The translations under genes were made by a program, and so were the position numbers. The notes under the pieces were generated by a model. The model was not told the DNA's origin. It did no database searches and worked only from the letters and a program-made list of their open reading frames with translations. A stretch of DNA of 40,410 nt from an uncultured Pelagibacteraceae bacterium (GTDB taxonomy: Bacteria > Pseudomonadota > Alphaproteobacteria > Pelagibacterales > Pelagibacteraceae): assembly GCA_902632445.1 (NCBI GenBank), contig CACPCL010000008.1, positions 1-40,410 of the forward strand, in the 5' to 3' direction. Of this stretch, positions 30,249 through 39,059 are shown one piece after another; positions within the stretch are counted from its first letter, which is position 1, and the number at the start of each line of letters is the position of its first letter.

Positions 30249-30890
30249 GTGAAATTGAATCTAAATAAATTGCGAAACACTCTTAGAACCACTCTAATTA
30301 GCGTTTGGGAGTACGTAATTCCCATCTGGAAGATTTCAGGACTATTTAAAAGCATAAAATCAAAAAAAGATTTAGAAAATTTTATTCAAGAAAGATCTGC
30401 TCACGTTACTCAAACAACTTTATACGGTTATTTAAAAACAAGAATAGGAGTTAAATACATTGCCATGATGGAAGATGAGAGGTTTTTAAAGTCAATCAAT
30501 ATTGCAAAATGGAATATATATGTGGTTGCTTTAGCTGATTGTACTTTTTATGTTTTTTCTTATCTTATTTCAGAAAAAAACTTGAAAGATAATGATTGTA
30601 AAGAAATCTTTTTAAAAATTTTAGAAAGTGAGAAAAAAAATGGTCTCAGTAATGAAATTTTTGATAGAGGAAAGAAAAATTTTTTAGAAAGAGTGGATAA
30701 AGTAAACTTTTCAAACTATCATTTAGACGATCCTTTTAAAGAGAGCGGTCAAGCTTTATACTATTGGTCACCTATTGCAGATGAATTAAAATCACTTGAT
30801 AAAAAAATTGTTCTGAATTCTATTCATTTGAAGTGGGAATTAATGAAGAATGAGTTTAAAAAATCAACGAAAAATTTAAAATTTAATTAA
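30249..30890 (+). CDS. Conserved-looking protein of unknown function
   Basis: The protein has 213 residues and starts at GTG; the next in-frame Met is about residue 73, after a region that looks conserved ([26 protein letters not shown], about 46-71). Further on come [25 protein letters not shown] and a C-terminal [27 protein letters not shown]. No signal peptide or catalytic motif is obvious; the N-terminus is basic and amphipathic. I believe similar proteins occur in other alphaproteobacteria but cannot name a family. It sits between the acetate-type symporter and acs, and its 3' end overlaps the convergent acs by 4 bases, so a role in acetate use is possible. Confidence 0.8.
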
Positions 30891-33025
30891 CCTTTATTTT
30901 GTCTATTTTCAACAAGGGAATTAACTACACTCGGGTCAGCAAGAGTTGTTGTATCACCAAGATTGTTTGGTTCATTTGCAGCAATTTTTCTAAGAATTCT
31001 TCTCATAATTTTTCCAGATCTTGTTTTAGGTAATCCAGGCGCAAATTGAATTACATCAGGTGTAGCTATTGGACCAATTTGCTTTCTTACCCAAAGTTTA
31101 AGATCCCTCTCCAAGTCTCCCGTTGGATTTTCTCCTGCATTTAAAGTTACATAACAATACAATCCGTTTCCTTTTATGCTGTGAGGAAATCCTACTACAG
31201 CTGCTTCAGCAACTTTTGGATGGGCGACAAATGCACTTTCTATTTCCGCTGTTCCTAAATTATGTCCAGAAACGATAATTACATCATCTACTCTTCCAGT
31301 AATCCAATAATAACCATCTTTATCTCTTCTGCACCCATCACCTGTAAAATATTTACCATCGAACTGTGAAAAATAAGTATCTATAAATCTTTGGTGATCA
31401 CCGTAAACTGTTCTCATTTGTCCTGGCCAGGAACTTGCCATACACAATCTTCCTTTTCCTTCCCCTTTGACAATTTTGCCATCTTTATCAACTATAACAG
31501 GTTTGATCCCGTAAAAAGGTTTAGTTGCCGAACCAGGTTTCAAATCTATAGCTCCCGGTTGTGGAGCTATCAATATACCTCCTGTTTCTGTTTGCCACCA
31601 TGTATCAACAATTGGACAACGTGAGTCTCCGACAGTTTTATAATACCACATCCAAGCCTCAGGGTTTATTGGTTCACCTACAGTTCCAAGTAATTTAAGT
31701 GTTTTCCTGCTTGTTTTTTTAACAGGTCCATCACCCTCTCTCATCAAGGCTCTTATCGCTGTTGGAGCAGTATAAAAAATATTTACCTTATGCTTATCGA
31801 CTATTTGCCACCAACGTGAGCTATCAGGATAATTAGGAACTCCTTCAAACATAATTGTAGTTGCTCCGTTAGAAAGTGGTCCATAGATTATGTAACTATG
31901 GCCTGTAACCCAACCTATATCAGCAGTGCACCAATAAATATCATTTGATTTATAGTCGAAGATATATTGATGTGTCATTGAAGCATAGACCATGTAACCG
32001 CCTGTAGTATGAAGCACACCTTTTGGTTTTCCTGTTGAACCAGATGTATAGAGAATAAATAATGGGTCTTCTGCGCTCATTTCTTCGGGTTCGCATTTAG
32101 CAGGAACCGAAGAAGTTAAATCCTTGTAAGAAACATCTCTTTCGTTATTCCAATCAACTTGGTTACCAGTTCTTTCTACTACTACACATTTTTTCACTCC
32201 TGGGCATTGATCTAATGCCTCATCAGCTATTTTCTTAAGGGGTATAATTTTCCCTCCGCGTACTCCTTCGTCTGCAGTAATTAAGTATTCAGACTCACAG
32301 TCTGTTATTCTTGTAGCGATTGAGTCTGGAGAAAAACCTCCAAAAATAATTGAATGCACCGCACCAATCCTTGCACATGCTAACATAATATAAGCTAGCT
32401 CGGGTATCATAGTAAGATAGATAGTAACCCGATCACCTTTTTGGATTCCTAAACTTTTTAAACCATTAGCGGCTTTACAAACATTTTGATGTAATTCTCG
32501 ATAAGATATTTTCTTCGTATCAGATGGGTCATCTCCAACCCAAATTATAGCTGTCTTACTAGGATTTTTTTTAAGATGTCTGTCTATACAATTTGCCGAT
32601 GCATTTAGTGTTCCATCATAAAACCATTTTATTTTTACATCTTCTTTACTATATTTAACATCTTTTATTTTAGTATATTTTTTAATCCATGTTATTCTTT
32701 TACCTTCTTTAGCCCAAAATTTATCATTTTCTTTTATAGAGAGCTTATATTTCTTTTTGTATTTAGATTCATTTACATACGCGTGATTAGCCCAGCTGTC
32801 AGAAACTTTGATTATTGAGTTTCCATCACTATCTTTCGAATATGTTGGGGCTTTAAAATTAATTTTTCTTACTCTAGTTCTTTTTTTTGAAAATTTTTTT
32901 TTCTTTTTTCTAGTTTTTTTCCTAGATTTTCTTATTTTCCTACTAGATTTTCTTACTTTTACAGTTTTTTTTCTAGATTTATTTTTTTTTCTATTTTTTC
33001 TTTTTTTCTTTCTCTTCTTAGCCAC
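30887..33025 (-). CDS. acs: Acs, acetyl-CoA synthetase with a polybasic N-terminal extension
   Basis: This 712-residue AMP-forming ligase activates acetate to acetyl-CoA. From about residue 85 it follows the family: WYDGTLN-type segment, [49 protein letters not shown] (acetate-pocket Trp), [22 protein letters not shown], and [17 protein letters not shown] with the catalytic Lys, the usual acetylation site. The first 54 residues contain 37 Lys/Arg and no acidic residue. No internal Met precedes about residue 206, and I found no GTG or TTG start between the tail and the enzyme core, so the extension appears real. E. coli Acs lacks it. The gene ends the tsaD-to-acs minus-strand run. Confidence 0.95.
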
Positions 33026-33037
33026 AAAATTTCTCCC

Positions 33038-33460
33038 CTATTTGCTCACTTTACCCATCTTATAAATAATTTTCCAGCTTTTAAAATCTATTGGCATTAC
33101 TGATAATCTACTTTGTTTTATCAATGGTAAATGTGAAATACTCTCTGTTTTTTTAATTTTTTCAAGTGTAATTGGATTTTTAAACTCTTTTTCAAACCTA
33201 ACTTGAACTGCCACAAATCTTCCTTTTTTATCAGATTTATCTAAAAAAGCTTTTTTTATAACTTTTACAATACCTACTATTTCTTTACCGATATTAGAGT
33301 GATAAAAATAACATAAATCACCTTCACACATATCCTTCAGATAATTTGCGGCTTGATAATTTCTTACACCATCCCAAGACACACCTTTAGCACCTGCTTT
33401 TTTTTGTTGTTTAATAGACCAAACATCAGGCTCAGATTTAAGTAACCAATACCGCATCAA
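33038..33460 (-). CDS. EVE-domain protein
   Basis: This 140-residue protein is a PUA-like EVE domain: MRYWLLKSEPDVWSI, then WDGVRNYQAANYLKDM and GDLCYFYHSN, with IVGIVKVIKKAF. EVE domains bind modified bases in DNA or RNA, and this stand-alone form resembles thymocyte nuclear protein 1. Two adjacent Mets are possible starts. It lies 12 bases upstream of acs and 12 bases downstream of the ACP gene, so it is embedded in the same transcription unit, although a functional link is not evident. Confidence 0.92.
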   Translation of the reverse strand: MMRYWLLKSEPDVWSIKQQKKAGAKGVSWDGVRNYQAANYLKDMCEGDLCYFYHSNIGKEIVGIVKVIKKAFLDKSDKKGRFVAVQVRFEKEFKNPITLEKIKKTESISHLPLIKQSRLSVMPIDFKSWKIIYKMGKVSK

Positions 33461-33472
33461 TATTATTATTTA

Positions 33473-33706
33473 TTAGGTTTTGTTTATGTAATCCAAAATT
33501 TTTTTTACAGTATTTAACTCAGAAATTTTACTTGTCGGAATTTTTTTCTTTATCATCTTTTCTATTTTTACCATTATAGTTACCTGACCAAGGCTATCCC
33601 ACTTGAAAAAATCTGTAGACTTTGAATTAATTCCTATTTTATTTTCTTGTTCCCCAATTGTATCAGAAATTATTTTAATTATTTTTCCTAAATTTTCTTT
33701 TTTCAT
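33473..33706 (-). CDS. Acyl carrier protein (dedicated, DltC-like role)
   Basis: The protein has 77 residues. The phosphopantetheine site is Ser38 in KWDSLGQVTIMVKIE, matching the D-S-L motif with helix II following. Unlike fatty-acid AcpP it is strongly basic in several stretches (KIEKMIKKKIPTSK), so it is likely a specialised carrier. Its start overlaps the ligase stop by 4 bases, pointing to a ligase-carrier pair as in DltA-DltC. The proposed role is to carry an activated acyl group to the MBOAT protein encoded just upstream in the run. Confidence 0.88.
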   Translation of the reverse strand: MKKENLGKIIKIISDTIGEQENKIGINSKSTDFFKWDSLGQVTIMVKIEKMIKKKIPTSKISELNTVKKILDYINKT

Positions 33707-35436
33707 TTATTTTTAATTAAATATAAAATTTTATTTATTAAATTCTTGTTTGTCATTACATTAAGATCAATTTTTTGTAAAGAATCTGGTTCAATAAGAG
33801 CCTGCCTTAATAACCTTCTCAAAATTTTTCCACTTCTAGTTTTGGGCAATTCATCTAAGTAAAATATCCTCTTTGGTATAGCATATGATCCAAAATTATT
33901 TACTATTTGTTTTTCAATAATTGTATCTATTTTCTTTTTTTTTGATACAACAAATAAATATAAAGTTTCACCTTCCATAAAGTTAGGTACTGAGATTGCA
34001 CAACACTCACTCACATGAATAATTTTTAATATTATTGACTCTATTTCCTCACAACCTATCCTGTGCCCCCTTATATTAATAACATCGTCCGTTCTACCGT
34101 GTATATATAAATTCCCGTTTCTTTTTGTTGCGAGATCGAACATTCTGAAATTTCCGGATTTGTCCCAATATTTCTTCCATACTTTAATTCCATTTAAAAC
34201 TCGTTTCATATTCCCAGGCCAAGGAGATAGAAGTTTTATTTCTATTTTATTTTTTTTATGAAGTTTATTTATTTTTAATTTTTTTGTGATTGTATTACCA
34301 ACTGAGCCTTGTGGTACTTTAGAAATTTTGTCCTCAAAAGTTGGTGAGATTATTATTGATCCATTTTCAGTCTGAAAATACCCGTTAACAACTGTTTTAC
34401 TTTTTTTTGTAAAACTTTTAGCAAACCATTCGGCTATAGGAGGCGCTAAGTGTTCTCCCATAGAAGCTAAAGTTTTAAGATACTTTGTTTGAAATTTTTT
34501 GTTTCCAAAAAATGATTTCATTAACCTTATCAATGTTACAGGTAAATAAAGTATAGTTACTTTTAATTTAAGTACTTTTTTTAATACTTTTTCGTCTAAC
34601 AATAAAAATGGGTCTTCAACTAAAACAGTACTTGCTCCGATTGATAATGGTCCAAACAAAGCGTATGAGTGTCCATTTATCCATCCAGCATTTGAAGCCG
34701 CCAAGATCACAGAGTTTTTATTCATGCCAAATTGTTTTAGGCAAGAATATTTTGTAGCAAAAAAATAACCACCAGATGAATGAACTATTCCCTTAGGAAT
34801 GCCAGTTGACCCAGAAGTAAATAAAGTAAATAAATCTCTATCTGAGTTTACGATCTGATCTTTTACGAAATTTTTTGTAGGTGAAGAGTTTAAAATTTTG
34901 TCATTAATAAAAAGCAATTTAAATTTCCATTTTTTCTTTACTTTGCTTAATATTTCTTTGTCGAAATACTTTTTATCAAACCTTGTTATAAATAAATTTG
35001 GTTTTATCAAATCTACTCTTTTTTCTATGGCTTCTGGCGCCAGGTCTTCAAATATAACTGAAAAGTGAATTCCTAATTTGACACATGCAAATAAAGATAC
35101 AGTTGTCTCAATCGATGAGGAGCCGTGAATGATTACTTTCGAATTTGAATTATGATCTATTTTTTTTTTTAAAATTTTTGCAAAATTATTTACGAGAAAG
35201 TAAAGTTGTTTATATGAATAACTCTTAACTTCTTTTTTTTTATTTACATAAAAAATTGCAGTCTTGTTTTTGTAATTAGATCTATAATGTTTTGAAATAC
35301 AATTCTCAAATATGTTTAATCTTGCACCAGGAAACCAAGTAATAAAATTATTATTTTTTTTTCTAAATGGTTTTTGTGGTTTAGTTATCCAATCTATTAT
35401 CTCAGAACTTTTTATCCAAAAATTATTTTTTGACAT
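33703..35436 (-). CDS. Adenylate-forming acyl ligase of acetyl-CoA-synthetase type (DltA-like role)
   Basis: This 577-residue ANL-superfamily enzyme has an ACS-like N-terminus (WFPGARLNIFENCISKHY, about 34-51), the P-loop FTSGSTGIPKG (206-216), NAGWINGHSYALFGPL, YFQTENGS (353-360), the hinge GRTDDVINIRGHRIG (447-461) and the catalytic Lys537 in [14 protein letters not shown]. Where Acs has Trp-Trp in the acyl pocket (WWQTE), this protein has Tyr-Phe (YFQTE), so a different short acyl substrate is plausible. The overlap with the ACP gene suggests that it charges that ACP rather than, or as well as, CoA. True acetoacetyl-CoA synthetase or a second Acs are alternatives. Confidence 0.85.
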   Translation of the reverse strand: MSKNNFWIKSSEIIDWITKPQKPFRKKNNNFITWFPGARLNIFENCISKHYRSNYKNKTAIFYVNKKKEVKSYSYKQLYFLVNNFAKILKKKIDHNSNSKVIIHGSSSIETTVSLFACVKLGIHFSVIFEDLAPEAIEKRVDLIKPNLFITRFDKKYFDKEILSKVKKKWKFKLLFINDKILNSSPTKNFVKDQIVNSDRDLFTLFTSGSTGIPKGIVHSSGGYFFATKYSCLKQFGMNKNSVILAASNAGWINGHSYALFGPLSIGASTVLVEDPFLLLDEKVLKKVLKLKVTILYLPVTLIRLMKSFFGNKKFQTKYLKTLASMGEHLAPPIAEWFAKSFTKKSKTVVNGYFQTENGSIIISPTFEDKISKVPQGSVGNTITKKLKINKLHKKNKIEIKLLSPWPGNMKRVLNGIKVWKKYWDKSGNFRMFDLATKRNGNLYIHGRTDDVINIRGHRIGCEEIESIILKIIHVSECCAISVPNFMEGETLYLFVVSKKKKIDTIIEKQIVNNFGSYAIPKRIFYLDELPKTRSGKILRRLLRQALIEPDSLQKIDLNVMTNKNLINKILYLIKNK

Positions 35437-35457
35437 AATATTTAGGTTAGAATTAAA

Positions 35458-35574
35458 TTAAAAAATCATATAAATGAATGGAACTAAATCTGCATTATTA
35501 TTTAGAGCAAGAAATGCAACAATTAATGCTAGTAAAAAAATAAATGCTGCTCGAACGATTTTCCTTTTATTCAT
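35458..35574 (-). CDS. 38-residue single-pass membrane peptide with a DltX-like C-terminus
   Basis: This short frame starts 16 bases after the MBOAT stop codon and ends 21 bases before the ligase start. It has a basic N-terminus (MNKRKIVR), one hydrophobic helix (about 9-24) and a short tail ending PFIYMIF, with Tyr35 four residues from the end. Inside-positive charge predicts a periplasmic C-terminus. DltX proteins of Gram-positive dlt operons are about 50 residues, single-pass, and end in a conserved Phe-Ile-Tyr-x-x-Phe type motif whose tyrosine is reported to take the acyl group from DltB (from memory). The match of size, topology, tail and operon position is the evidence. Small size means chance cannot be fully excluded. 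Confidence 0.75.
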   Translation of the reverse strand: MNKRKIVRAAFIFLLALIVAFLALNNNADLVPFIYMIF

Positions 35575-35589
35575 ATAAAGTTAAAGTAT

Positions 35590-36906
35590 TTAATCTAGTA
35601 GTTTATTTAAACTTAATTTACTTATAAGCCAATTAGTATTTTTAAGAACAAAACATATAATTATAGAAAAAATAAATGCCATTATTACTACAATAGATAA
35701 ATTAATTGAAATATATTCTAATTTATTAATAGATCTAAAATCTAACATTTTTTTAATAATGAAAGATGCTTGCTCAACGCTATCAGCTCTAAAGAAAATG
35801 AAAGTGAAATTTACATAAACAAAAGTAAGTGCTTGAGAAAAAAATTGATTAAGTTTGATATCGAAAATTCTTTTAAATGTATGATTTACTATTAATCCAA
35901 ATCCATGCATTGCACCAAAAATTACATAGGTCCATGATGGTCCATGCCATAATCCAGCAATTAAAAAAACTATCAAAGTGGCTATCATTGAATTGAAAAA
36001 ATTTATATTCTGAAATGATTTTAGCAGTGGCCCGTAAAGATAAGTTGTCAAAAAGTGGGTTAAAGTTATATGCCATCTCTGCCAAAAATTTATTATACCG
36101 GTAGCCTTAAACGGACTATCAAAATTTTGAGGAAGTCGAATATTAAATAATAAAGCTATTCCAGTTGCCATATCTATATATCCACTAAAATCAAAATAAA
36201 TTTGGAATGTGAAACACAAAGATCCAAGCCAACAATCTACAAAACTAAGAGATGTCGTATCAGTAAAAACCTGATCTGTTACTATTGATAGATTATCAGC
36301 TATAAAAACTTTTTTTATTATACCAATAGACAAAATTATTAAGCCTATGCATATATTTTTAAAAATAAAATTTAGATTTTTACCCTCTTCGAATTGGCTA
36401 ATCATTTGGTTATATCTTACAATTGGACCAGCTATTAATTGAGGAAAAAAAATTATAAACAATGCATATCTTTTCAAATTTAAATTTTTAATATTATTCT
36501 CGTAGCAATCACATAAGAATGCAATTGTTTGAAAAGTTACGAAGCTTAATGCTAGTGGAAATGGCAGATTAAGTGGTTTAATGTTTGAACTAAATAAAAA
36601 ATTAATATTATTAATAAAAAAATCTGAGTACTTAAAAAAACCTAAATAAAGTATGTTGAATATGATTGCTGAAATTAATATTGTTTTTTTATCTTTGTCA
36701 TCTCTATTTATAATCTTCTTGCTAAATAAATAATTAATTAAAATTGAAAAAATTATTAATGGTGAAAATTTTAAATTCCAGGCAGCATAAAAAATATATC
36801 CAGAAATAATTAAAAAAATAAATCTATATTTATCTTTGAGAAGAAAAAATCCTAATAAAACTAACGGAAGATAAGCAAATAGAAAGATTTTATCATGAAA
36901 TAACAT
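35590..36906 (-). CDS. MBOAT-family membrane-bound O-acyltransferase (AlgI/DltB-like)
   Basis: This 438-residue polytopic protein has about 10 or more hydrophobic segments. The MBOAT signature is clear: FFPQLIAGPIVRYNQM (153-168), IYFDFSGYIDMATGIALLF (236-254), NFWQRWHITLTHFLTTYLYGPL (273-294) and GLWHGPSWTYVIFGAMHG (318-335), with candidate catalytic histidines H279, H321 and H334. Such proteins pass acyl groups from a cytoplasmic donor to an acceptor across the inner membrane, as in alginate acetylation or teichoic acid D-alanylation. It lies 3 bases after the SGNH gene and 16 bases before the small peptide, within a ligase-ACP cluster. Confidence 0.95.
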   Translation of the reverse strand: MLFHDKIFLFAYLPLVLLGFFLLKDKYRFIFLIISGYIFYAAWNLKFSPLIIFSILINYLFSKKIINRDDKDKKTILISAIIFNILYLGFFKYSDFFINNINFLFSSNIKPLNLPFPLALSFVTFQTIAFLCDCYENNIKNLNLKRYALFIIFFPQLIAGPIVRYNQMISQFEEGKNLNFIFKNICIGLIILSIGIIKKVFIADNLSIVTDQVFTDTTSLSFVDCWLGSLCFTFQIYFDFSGYIDMATGIALLFNIRLPQNFDSPFKATGIINFWQRWHITLTHFLTTYLYGPLLKSFQNINFFNSMIATLIVFLIAGLWHGPSWTYVIFGAMHGFGLIVNHTFKRIFDIKLNQFFSQALTFVYVNFTFIFFRADSVEQASFIIKKMLDFRSINKLEYISINLSIVVIMAFIFSIIICFVLKNTNWLISKLSLNKLLD

Positions 36907-36909
36907 TTG

Positions 36910-37986
36910 CTAATTGTTAAAAACTTCTTGCGTTATTTTTTCTGCCAAAACGTTATGTCCAATATGAGTATAATGTTCATCACCAGTAAAAAAAAGTTTT
37001 TTATACCAATTTTTGTTATTTTTTTTGTAATTAGCAAAACTTTCAAAAGAATTAATAAAATTACAATTCTTTTTGCACAAGTCTTTAGCATACTTCTCCC
37101 AATTAAAATATTTTTGACCGTACTCCAAAGTGTCAGCGAAAGGGAATATTATTAAATAAAATTCAATATTTCTCTCCTCTAAGACTGATATTGTTTTATT
37201 AATTTTTCTTTTAATCTTATTTTTTCCTAATTCAAAATTTTTATCAGTATAATAGGGTTTAAGTTTTTCTAAAGGAGTATAAGTATAACCAGCCTGAATT
37301 GTAGTTCTTACCTCTAAGTTATTATTTTTTTTATCTCTATTTCTTGTTGATCTAATTAAATCCCTAATAGAATGAGCGATTGATCGGGATAATTTAAAGT
37401 TTTTTTTAACAAATTTTTCCTTTTTGTTTGCTTTTCTAAATAATTCATCGGTCATCAACATTGGCCTACCAGAGCTGTCATTATCCCCCCAAACACTTAT
37501 TTCACTTAAAATATCCGACATAGATAAAAAAAATAAAATTTTTTTTGGATTATTTTCTGAATTAATTTCATTTGTAAGATTAAATAAATGTACAGTAGGG
37601 CTACCGTAAGGATAAGAAAAATTATAAAATTCATATTGCTTATGATTATTTTCTAAAATTCCAATTACACTCTTCTCAAATTCTAATCCCGCGCCATATA
37701 TAAATGAAGATCCAAAAGCGTAAACTTTATTTTTTGTACTACGTTTATGCCCTTCTTTAATTCTTAAACCTTTATTATCAGTAAAAATATTAGTAGTTGG
37801 CATAGTAGCTCTAAGTTTTTCTTTTCCATTACAATTTTTTTTTAAAGCAATATAATATCTCTCAACATGCTTGCACCCTTTATCACTTAAATTGAGAATA
37901 GAATTACTTATAATTAGATCAATTATGAAAAAACAAAATAGGAAAAAAAATAAATTGGGGAAAAAAGAATATAAAAATTTTTTCAT
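36910..37986 (-). CDS. Membrane-anchored SGNH-like protein (DltD/AlgJ-like role)
   Basis: This 358-residue protein begins with a signal-anchor helix (about 8-30), placing the rest in the periplasm. Block I reads VYAFGSSFIYGAG (88-100), in which GSS replaces the usual GDS, so Ser94 is the likely nucleophile. Near the C-terminus FTGDEHYTHIGH (333-344) carries an Asp-x-His pair (D336, H338) followed by the family Gly-His. An Asn in NFSYPYGSP (122-130) could serve block II. It probably completes acyl transfer to an envelope acceptor in partnership with the MBOAT protein. The ATG overlaps the tsaD stop by one base (TAATG), so translation is coupled. Confidence 0.82.
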   Translation of the reverse strand: MKKFLYSFFPNLFFFLFCFFIIDLIISNSILNLSDKGCKHVERYYIALKKNCNGKEKLRATMPTTNIFTDNKGLRIKEGHKRSTKNKVYAFGSSFIYGAGLEFEKSVIGILENNHKQYEFYNFSYPYGSPTVHLFNLTNEINSENNPKKILFFLSMSDILSEISVWGDNDSSGRPMLMTDELFRKANKKEKFVKKNFKLSRSIAHSIRDLIRSTRNRDKKNNNLEVRTTIQAGYTYTPLEKLKPYYTDKNFELGKNKIKRKINKTISVLEERNIEFYLIIFPFADTLEYGQKYFNWEKYAKDLCKKNCNFINSFESFANYKKNNKNWYKKLFFTGDEHYTHIGHNVLAEKITQEVFNN

Positions 37987-39059
37987 TATAATTTTAAACC
38001 TGGGCCTTTCATGAAAGGTGCTTTTTCATCTAACGGCCATCTTGATTTTGCTATAACATTATTCTCATCTAATAAATTTTGATTGAATCTTTTAATTCCT
38101 GCCCACGCAATCATTGCTGCATTATCACCACAAAATTTTATACTAGGGTAAACAGTTTTAAATTTCATTTCATTGGATAAATTATTTAAATTTTTTCTAA
38201 TTGACTTATTAGCTGCTACACCTCCAGCAACAACAAGGTTTGTTTCAATAGATCTAGTTTTTTTCTTAAACATTTCAACTGCAATTTTTGTTTTTTTATA
38301 AAGAATTTTGTTGATAGTATTTTGAAATGAAGCTGCCAGATCATATTTCATTTTATCACTATTTATTTTTTTAGACTCTCTTAGGACTGCAGTTTTAAGT
38401 CCTGCAAAAGATAAATTACATCCTGCTTTGTTTATTATTGGTTCGGGTAATTTAAAAATTTTTTCATTTCCTAAAATAGAAAATTTTTCTATACTAGGTC
38501 CTCCTGGATACCCAAGATCGAGCATCTTAGCCGTTTTATCAAAAGCTTCACCTAGCGCATCATCTATCGTAGTTCCGAGCTGTTCATATTTATTTACATC
38601 TTTTACAATTAGAAATTGGGAATGACCCCCAGATATCAATAATAACAAATAGGGAAATTTGATATTTGTCTCAAGACCAGGACTTAAAGCGTGACCTTCT
38701 AAGTGATTAACTCCAATAAAAGGTTTGTTCGTAAATGTGGCAATAGACTTTCCAATATTGAGACCAATTGTTAAACAAACTATTAAACCAGGCCCAGCTG
38801 TTGCAGCTACACCATCAATGTCTTCTAAAGTGATTTTACTTTTTTCTAAAGCAGAATTAATGATGTAATCAATATTTTCTAAATGAGCTCTAGCTGCCAA
38901 TTCAGGAACTACACCCCCGAACTTTTTATGCTCGGAAATTTGACTTGATACAATATTTGATAAAATATCAGCAGTTCCTTTGTCATTTTCCCTAACTATC
39001 GCAGCTGCTGTTTCGTCACAGCTAGTTTCAATTCCCAAAAATGTAATCTTTTTCTTCAT
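37986..39059 (-). CDS. tsaD: TsaD (Gcp/YgjD), tRNA N6-threonylcarbamoyladenosine synthase subunit
   Basis: This 357-residue ASKHA-fold enzyme transfers the threonylcarbamoyl group to A37 of ANN-decoding tRNAs with TsaB and TsaE. LGIETSCDETAAAIV opens the protein, the metal-binding HxxxH lies in GVNHLEGHALSP, and LLLISGGHSQ, DDALGEAFDKTAKML, VVAGGVAANKSIR and FCGDNAAMIAWAG follow. It diverges from hemC across 56 bases and heads the minus-strand run that continues into the acylation cluster. Confidence 0.97.
   Translation of the reverse strand: MKKKITFLGIETSCDETAAAIVRENDKGTADILSNIVSSQISEHKKFGGVVPELAARAHLENIDYIINSALEKSKITLEDIDGVAATAGPGLIVCLTIGLNIGKSIATFTNKPFIGVNHLEGHALSPGLETNIKFPYLLLLISGGHSQFLIVKDVNKYEQLGTTIDDALGEAFDKTAKMLDLGYPGGPSIEKFSILGNEKIFKLPEPIINKAGCNLSFAGLKTAVLRESKKINSDKMKYDLAASFQNTINKILYKKTKIAVEMFKKKTRSIETNLVVAGGVAANKSIRKNLNNLSNEMKFKTVYPSIKFCGDNAAMIAWAGIKRFNQNLLDENNVIAKSRWPLDEKAPFMKGPGLKL

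Follow-up and report, generated by a model that had tools for sequence, protein, structure and literature searches.

A probable Dlt-like envelope O-acylation cassette built from different parts in a SAR11 alphaproteobacterium

The five-gene cassette and its proposed function

The window analysed here, a stretch of 40,410 nucleotides, belongs to the genome of an uncultured Pelagibacteraceae bacterium (assembly GCA_902632445.1, contig CACPCL010000008.1; 835 kb in 33 contigs, 80% complete). On its minus strand, at positions 33473-37986, it contains five open reading frames (ORFs) that probably constitute a horizontally exchanged envelope O-acylation cassette, which would work like the Gram-positive Dlt system and is built of different parts. 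In the direction of transcription these are an SGNH transferase with an N-terminal signal anchor (36910-37986; 358 amino acids, hydropathy peak at residues 8-26), a DltB-like membrane-bound O-acyltransferase (MBOAT) that comprises the core only and has kept His279 and His321 (35590-36906; 438 amino acids), a single-pass microprotein ending in FIYMIF (35458-35574; 38 amino acids, hydropathy peak at residues 6-24), an adenylate-forming ligase derived from acetyl-CoA synthetase (Acs) and proposed to be an acyl:acyl carrier protein ligase (33703-35436; 577 amino acids), and a dedicated acyl carrier protein (ACP) with an FxxWDSL-type phosphopantetheine site (33473-33706; 77 amino acids). The genes are separated by 3 nt (SGNH to MBOAT), 15 nt (MBOAT to microprotein) and 21 nt (microprotein to ligase), the ligase and ACP genes overlap by 4 nt, and all five reading frames are intact. 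The five components claimed in a previous sequence-only reading are thus present as ORFs, and Pfam and NCBIfam agree on the identity of the MBOAT, the ligase, and the ACP.

According to the proposed mechanism, the ligase would activate a small carboxylic acid with ATP to an acyl-AMP and transfer it to the ACP instead of forming acyl-CoA. The MBOAT, by way of His321 (by analogy with the histidine of PatA and DltB), would then take the acyl group from its thioester on the ACP and convey it across the membrane to Tyr35 of the microprotein. From there the membrane-anchored SGNH protein would take it over on Ser94, for delivery to a glycan in the periplasm or on the cell surface. The gene order, the insertion, the protein families, an FxYxxF motif in trans, the loss of the CoA site in the ligase, and the recurrence of the ligase with the ACP (and in part with an MBOAT) were seen in the sequences, and we infer every chemical step, the acyl group, and the acceptor from them.

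The FxYxxF motif on a separate microprotein

The MBOAT matches PF03062 (E 2.4e-27), and its single NCBIfam match is DltB (E 1.5e-47; 162.7 bits, below the cut-off of 375). It terminates with NKLLD after the penultimate transmembrane (TM) helix, without an FxYxxF motif of its own. In PMC12148441, FXYXXF is described as an acyl-shuttle hexapeptide whose tyrosine bears the acyl group and which is located in trans on DltX or in cis on PatA; two architectures are distinguished there, a trans-acting DltX combined with a carrier protein, or a motif fused to an MBOAT that uses acyl-CoA. The FIYMIF tail of the 38-residue peptide agrees with this motif, and reading it as the shuttle motif turns the analogy between the peptide and DltX into a specific mechanism. 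No match of the peptide to DltX was obtained in Pfam (up to E 5) or NCBIfam (up to E 0.01), and the similarity to DUF5989 (E 0.001; 19.5 bits, short of the gathering score of 27) covers residues 11-38, which are the TM segment and the tail.

Among 1326 ORFs of 25-100 amino acids in the window and 12 SAR11 loci, five end in FxYxxF, compared with 0.8 in residue shuffles. A TM-like segment is found in just two of these five, the peptide of the window and that of a cassette in the SAR11 genome G748. This genome is near-identical to G1147 (97.5% in the MBOAT), and the two were therefore counted as one lineage. Their microproteins differ by two synonymous and one nonsynonymous substitution, corresponding to a ratio of nonsynonymous to synonymous differences per site (pN/pS) of 0.12, based on three differences, compared with 0.10-0.23 in four neighbouring genes. 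The possibility that the peptide is a chance ORF was rejected on the basis of the excess over the shuffles and this low pN/pS.

An MBOAT lacking the motif is exceptional. For an alphaproteobacterial control, the 29 best-scoring loci were read from a search that gave matches in 44 of 123 genomes (28 could be parsed, and weaker-scoring MBOATs were left out). Of these 28 MBOATs, 27 carry their own C-terminal FxYxxF; the remaining locus (L149) has masked bases near the MBOAT end and an 85-amino-acid ORF with the motif beyond. The motif is also fused in all four plasmid MBOATs (Deinococcus, Flammeovirgaceae, Vibrio, and Priestia, the last with FLYFNF), and no MBOAT of the G748 type was found in plasmids at E 1e-60. 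Within SAR11, seven MBOATs have it fused (L013-L018 and L020), L019 ends in LLYARI, and only those of the window and of G748/G1147 are without it. The MBOATs of the window and G748 (52% identical) have a common end point behind the penultimate TM helix. A TM microprotein ending in FxYxxF lies downstream of the MBOAT in the window and divergently, on the other strand, in G748 and G1147.

An Acs-derived ligase and its carrier protein

The ligase consists of the domains ACAS_N, AMP-binding, and AMP-binding_C. Its best NCBIfam match is acetate-CoA ligase (E 8.4e-106; 354.8 bits, below the cut-off of 657), in agreement with the Acs-like character assigned to it in the sequence-only reading, and the DltA models NF003417 and TIGR01734 score 108.3 and 92.3 bits (cut-offs 476 and 559.85, not reached). 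Related ligases are rare. The family comprises seven SAR11 sequences, from the window, G172, MED727 (identical with G1057, which is of the same genus as the window genome), G748, G1147, G664, and G625. Profile searches retrieved it from 5 of 397 genomes of the order (E 1e-120) and 4 of 169 genomes of the genus (E 1e-140), a single-sequence search at E 1e-75 with up to three candidates scored per genome returned only the window genome's own ligase among 385 genomes of the class, and no relatives were found in plasmids at E 1e-40 or in viral contigs. A scan of genome contigs with two narrow peptide patterns yielded five loci, of which two are SAR11 members, two are remote sequences (23-24%), and one is a canonical Acs from Croceivirga (55% identical to the canonical Acs of the window). 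A further candidate, G096, reported at the looser threshold of E 1e-60, was discarded as the stretch fetched contained a canonical Acs.

The active site was compared with 21 canonical Acs, 18 of which were N-terminal parts from loci of the neighbouring EVE gene, with Acs numbering obtained from an alignment to PDB 2p2f. Residues F163-G164-G165, R194, and R584 are what we take, from work on Salmonella Acs, to be the CoA nucleotide site. The FGGF sequence at positions 163-166 is replaced by FE[DE]L in all seven ligases (FEDL in the window), compared with FGGF in 20 canonical Acs and FAGF in one. R584 is replaced in all six ligases compared, five residues are missing beside R191/R194 in the same comparison, and the aligned chains show changes at both R194 and R584. 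In the same six sequences, K609, required for adenylation, and D500 and R515 of the hinge region are kept. The acyl pocket reads I310, N311, P357, M386, Y413, and F414 in all seven ligases (in the window V310I, T311N, A357P, V386M, W413Y, and W414F), and the canonical Acs have V (20) or I (1), T, A, and V at the first four positions and W and W at the last two in the 20 sequences that reach them. The simplest reading of these differences is that the ligase retained the adenylation chemistry, would have lost the use of CoA, and acquired a different acid pocket.

The ACP contains the WDSL site and matches PP-binding with 24.3 bits (cut-off 20.8). In six of the seven ligase loci the neighbouring gene encodes an ACP; the assignment for G172 relies on the WDS motif and the length of the protein, which has no Pfam PP-binding match, and the ACPs of G748 and G664 score slightly below the Pfam cut-off. 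Two PP-binding proteins were found in the window genome, the cassette ACP and one on contig C4, along with one phosphopantetheinyl transferase, which the ACP requires. The altered CoA site and the adjacent ACP gene argue for the earlier prediction that the ligase charges the ACP and does not make free acyl-CoA.

The acyl group is probably a C2-C4 acid, perhaps hydroxylated, and probably not an amino acid. Position 310, which presumably corresponds to the site of the amine-binding Asp in adenylation domains of nonribosomal peptide synthetases, is occupied by Ile and thus not acidic in all seven ligases, which mildly disfavours an amino acid as cargo. Asn311 and Phe414 hint at a short, perhaps hydroxylated acid. 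As far as the pocket can tell, the earlier suggestion that a short carboxylic acid is more plausible than D-alanine is slightly strengthened.

These observations also bear on the possibility that the window carries a true dlt operon, acquired by a Gram-negative organism and used for D-alanylation. Such an operon would contain the same five kinds of component, and DltB is the single NCBIfam match of the MBOAT, but we consider this origin highly improbable. The ligase scores far better as an acetate-CoA ligase than with either DltA model, the ACP has no match to DltC at E 0.01 and the SGNH protein none to DltD up to E 0.01 (Pfam and NCBIfam in both cases), the peptide likewise does not match DltX, the presumed amine-binding position is Ile throughout, and the order SGNH-MBOAT-peptide-ligase-ACP differs from that of dlt.

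The SGNH protein and its relatives

The only Pfam match of the SGNH protein is DUF1574 (E 0.0034, below the cut-off), which PMC9487903 counts among the SGNH hydrolase families. In an alignment of 15 SAR11 sequences, G92-x-S94-F95, an Asp at position 158, and D336-x-H338 are kept, with S94, D336, and H338 being invariant. Relatives occur in 14 of 197 genomes of the order, the window genome included. The wide neighbourhoods of ten of the other 13 contain a TM microprotein ending in FxYxxF in five cases and none in five, and the remaining three relatives have no such microprotein within short flanks.

The best-scoring relative, in G108 (33% identity), is accompanied by a stand-alone AT3 protein and a 37-amino-acid microprotein ending in FGYRLF (L103:4204-6419), whereas the second, in G180 (L108; 35%), has neither within 9 kb. 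How unfused AT3 proteins hand on the acyl group is a question raised in PMC9558356, and the layout in G108 may bear on it. In four further SAR11 loci (L104:3974-7433, L105:4243-4392, L106:4180-4329, and L107:8802-8954), a DUF5989-type microprotein ending in FIYTIF is accompanied by a carbamoyltransferase and a protein resembling SxtJ; Pfam confirms the three identities in L104, and those in L105-L107 were recognised by likeness. The SGNH protein of one such DUF5989-type operon, in G183, is 24% identical to that of the window.

DUF5989 is present in 54 of 299 sampled Pseudomonadota genomes, and 29 of the 30 best-scoring loci (L033-L062) end in F[IL]YT[LV]F. A carbamoyltransferase is recognisable by eye in all seven neighbourhoods read, and in L033 Pfam confirms SxtJ and SGNH. 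No description of a DUF5989 function was found in the literature searched, which did not cover subscription papers. The DUF5989 loci possibly represent a trans-membrane carbamoylation system.

Recurrence of the ligase-ACP-MBOAT association in SAR11

MBOATs are rare in the order (7 of 197 genomes), and yet an MBOAT occurs with the ligase and ACP in four of the seven ligase loci (window, MED727, G748, and G1147), representing three lineages. Their arrangements differ. All genes are co-directional in the window; in MED727 the ligase is divergent, the motif is fused, and a protein that appears SGNH-like by eye follows the MBOAT; and in G748 and G1147 an AT3-SGNH fusion lies directly after the MBOAT (L030:12075-13955 and L117:3052-4932). 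The co-occurrence of all five genes in relatives, as expected in the sequence-only reading, therefore holds for the ligase, the ACP, and the MBOAT in these four loci, while the SGNH partner differs and the motif of MED727 does not reside on a separate peptide, so that the five genes do not form a conserved set, which counts in part against the sequence-only reading.

In the stretches read, G172 and G664 have the ligase and ACP but no MBOAT, and in G625 neither an ACP nor an MBOAT gene adjoins that of the ligase. Judged by eye, the genes surrounding these three ligases resemble surface-glycan or phosphonate genes. One locus (L031:8565-16431) has the ligase and ACP beside genes that resemble, again by eye, those of a phosphonopyruvate decarboxylase, a transaminase, nucleotidyltransferases, and a radical S-adenosylmethionine/B12-type protein. 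Conversely, neither the ligase nor the ACP has a match in seven other SAR11 MBOAT loci (L013-L019), which indicates that most SAR11 MBOATs do not use the ligase-ACP module. Two of them have an MBOAT (fused FIYFQF), an adjacent protein of 379-383 amino acids placed in the SGNH position by its location, and a 585-amino-acid carbamoyltransferase (Pfam-confirmed in L017) in one run (L017:7659-12016 and L018:7689-12068).

Several observations weigh against the proposed acylation mechanism. As three of the seven ligase loci show no MBOAT in the stretches read, the ligase and ACP also seem to serve something else. Together with the MBOAT loci without ligase and ACP, this favours an ordinary MBOAT/SGNH acetyltransferase of the AlgI/PatA type that uses acetyl-CoA, with the ligase and ACP feeding another reaction such as a cytoplasmic sugar acylation. 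We regard this explanation as unlikely, given the tight packing of the genes with the 4-nt overlap and the repeated association with an MBOAT in three lineages and varied arrangements. Furthermore, acetyl-CoA would call for no extra ligase, a canonical Acs being encoded at 30887-33025 of the window, and the acetyl-CoA type has a fused motif, in contrast to the trans motif of the window.

The MBOAT and the peptide also share one reading frame with two in-frame TAA codons between them, so that the split in the window may possibly derive from a recently broken fused gene, and the peptide matches the last TM helix and motif of fused MBOATs. That a nonsense mutation broke a fused MBOAT in a decaying locus is nevertheless the least probable of the alternatives, since two stops plus a fresh ATG separate the parts, all five ORFs are open, the MBOATs of G748 and G1147 end at the identical boundary with their microprotein on the other strand, and DltX provides a natural precedent for the split. 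There are further unfavourable points. The complete five-gene set was met once, and the SGNH partner varies by lineage; the window SGNH protein has GSSF in block I, where the other 14 of the 15 aligned sequences have GDSF; and of its two nearest relatives, only that in G108 has a microprotein nearby. One of the three canonical Acs compared at position 584 also lacks the Arg (T in Croceivirga, R in two), and the R191 column, which differed between two alignments, was not used. AlphaFold predictions were too poor for use (pLDDT 42 for the SGNH protein alone, and 38 for the window MBOAT together with the fused MBOAT of MED727).

The cassette as an insertion

The cassette occupies positions 33461-37985 between an EVE gene (33038-33460) downstream, separated from the ACP gene by 12 nt, and tsaD (37986-39059) upstream, which overlaps the SGNH gene by one base. 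A relative of the EVE gene is present in 22 of 25 genomes, the window genome included, and of the 12 other loci from the same genus, 10 have tsaD immediately next to EVE. In the two remaining loci, another gene lies directly upstream of EVE (ketoacyl-ACP synthase III-like in L067, a thiamine pyrophosphate enzyme in L068), and tsaD is outside the flank read. In six of nine loci from another family, a gene for 331-333 amino acids is located between tsaD and EVE; the copy in L076, which was scanned, is a glycerol-3-phosphate dehydrogenase. Since tsaD abuts EVE in most same-genus loci and variable genes occur at this spot elsewhere, the cassette was inserted at a variable site, and its five genes arrived together or were assembled in place. 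The G + C content of the cassette is 25.5%, compared with 30.5% in the rest of the window. In Pelagibacter, the region just upstream of EVE appears to be a hotspot for insertions. PADLOC gave no match for any of the five proteins, and the ACP was the sole match in PHROGs, which was queried with the four proteins other than the ligase; a phage or defence origin was rejected on these results.

Comparison with known systems

Like Gram-positive DltA/C/B/X/D, the cassette has five kinds of component, a carrier protein gene beside that of the ligase and presumably a carrier-protein thioester, an MBOAT without its own FxYxxF, a separate single-pass microprotein that supplies this motif, and a membrane-anchored SGNH protein, which supports the Dlt-like five-component logic claimed for this Gram-negative SAR11 bacterium. 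It differs in its host, an alphaproteobacterium, its gene order, its Acs-derived ligase in place of a DltA-type enzyme, an ACP and an SGNH protein outside the DltC and DltD families, and a peptide with weak similarity to DUF5989 and not to DltX. As its ligase and SGNH protein belong to other families, the cassette works like Dlt and is not a Dlt member. With Acs, the ligase shares K609, D500, and R515 but not the CoA nucleotide site.

With the Gram-negative PatA/PatB, AlgI, and WssH systems the cassette has in common an MBOAT, an SGNH protein with the Ser-Asp-His set, and FxYxxF as the acyl-Tyr carrier; those systems have the motif fused and use acyl-CoA as donor, whereas the cassette combines a trans motif on a microprotein with a carrier protein. 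PMC12148441 states that MBOAT pathways outside Dlt have neither a carrier protein nor a DltX-like microprotein, and the cassette departs from this statement by having both, in a Gram-negative organism and with an unrelated ligase. No description of an MBOAT-SGNH system with an Acs-like ligase and ACP, or with a trans microprotein outside Dlt, was found in the literature searched, subscription papers being outside its coverage. The MED727 locus (L020) is similar in its ligase (48% identity), ACP, MBOAT, and adjacent SGNH-like protein and differs by the motif FLYFEF, which is fused to its 513-amino-acid MBOAT; the adjacent protein (370 amino acids) matches nothing in Pfam up to E 5.

The operons of DUF5989 (PF19451), SxtJ, carbamoyltransferase, and SGNH share with the cassette a single-pass microprotein ending in F[IL]YT[ILV]F and a related SGNH protein, and differ on the donor side, where a carbamoyltransferase occurs with SxtJ and no MBOAT, ligase, or ACP was seen in the SAR11 stretches read. 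The relatives of the cassette suggest that microprotein and SGNH protein are a reusable module for several donors, the DUF5989 family included. In a more general form, for which we would put the chances at a little under even, a trans FxYxxF microprotein with an SGNH protein would be a common back end by which activated groups cross the membrane, and swapped front ends would be, with the same reservation, the MBOAT, ACP, and Acs-like ligase in the window, AT3 in G108, SxtJ and carbamoyltransferase in the DUF5989 loci, and DltB in Gram-positive bacteria. If this is true, DUF5989 would carry carbamoyl groups on its tyrosine to envelope glycans, and a microprotein would explain the hand-over from some stand-alone AT3 proteins to an unfused SGNH partner.

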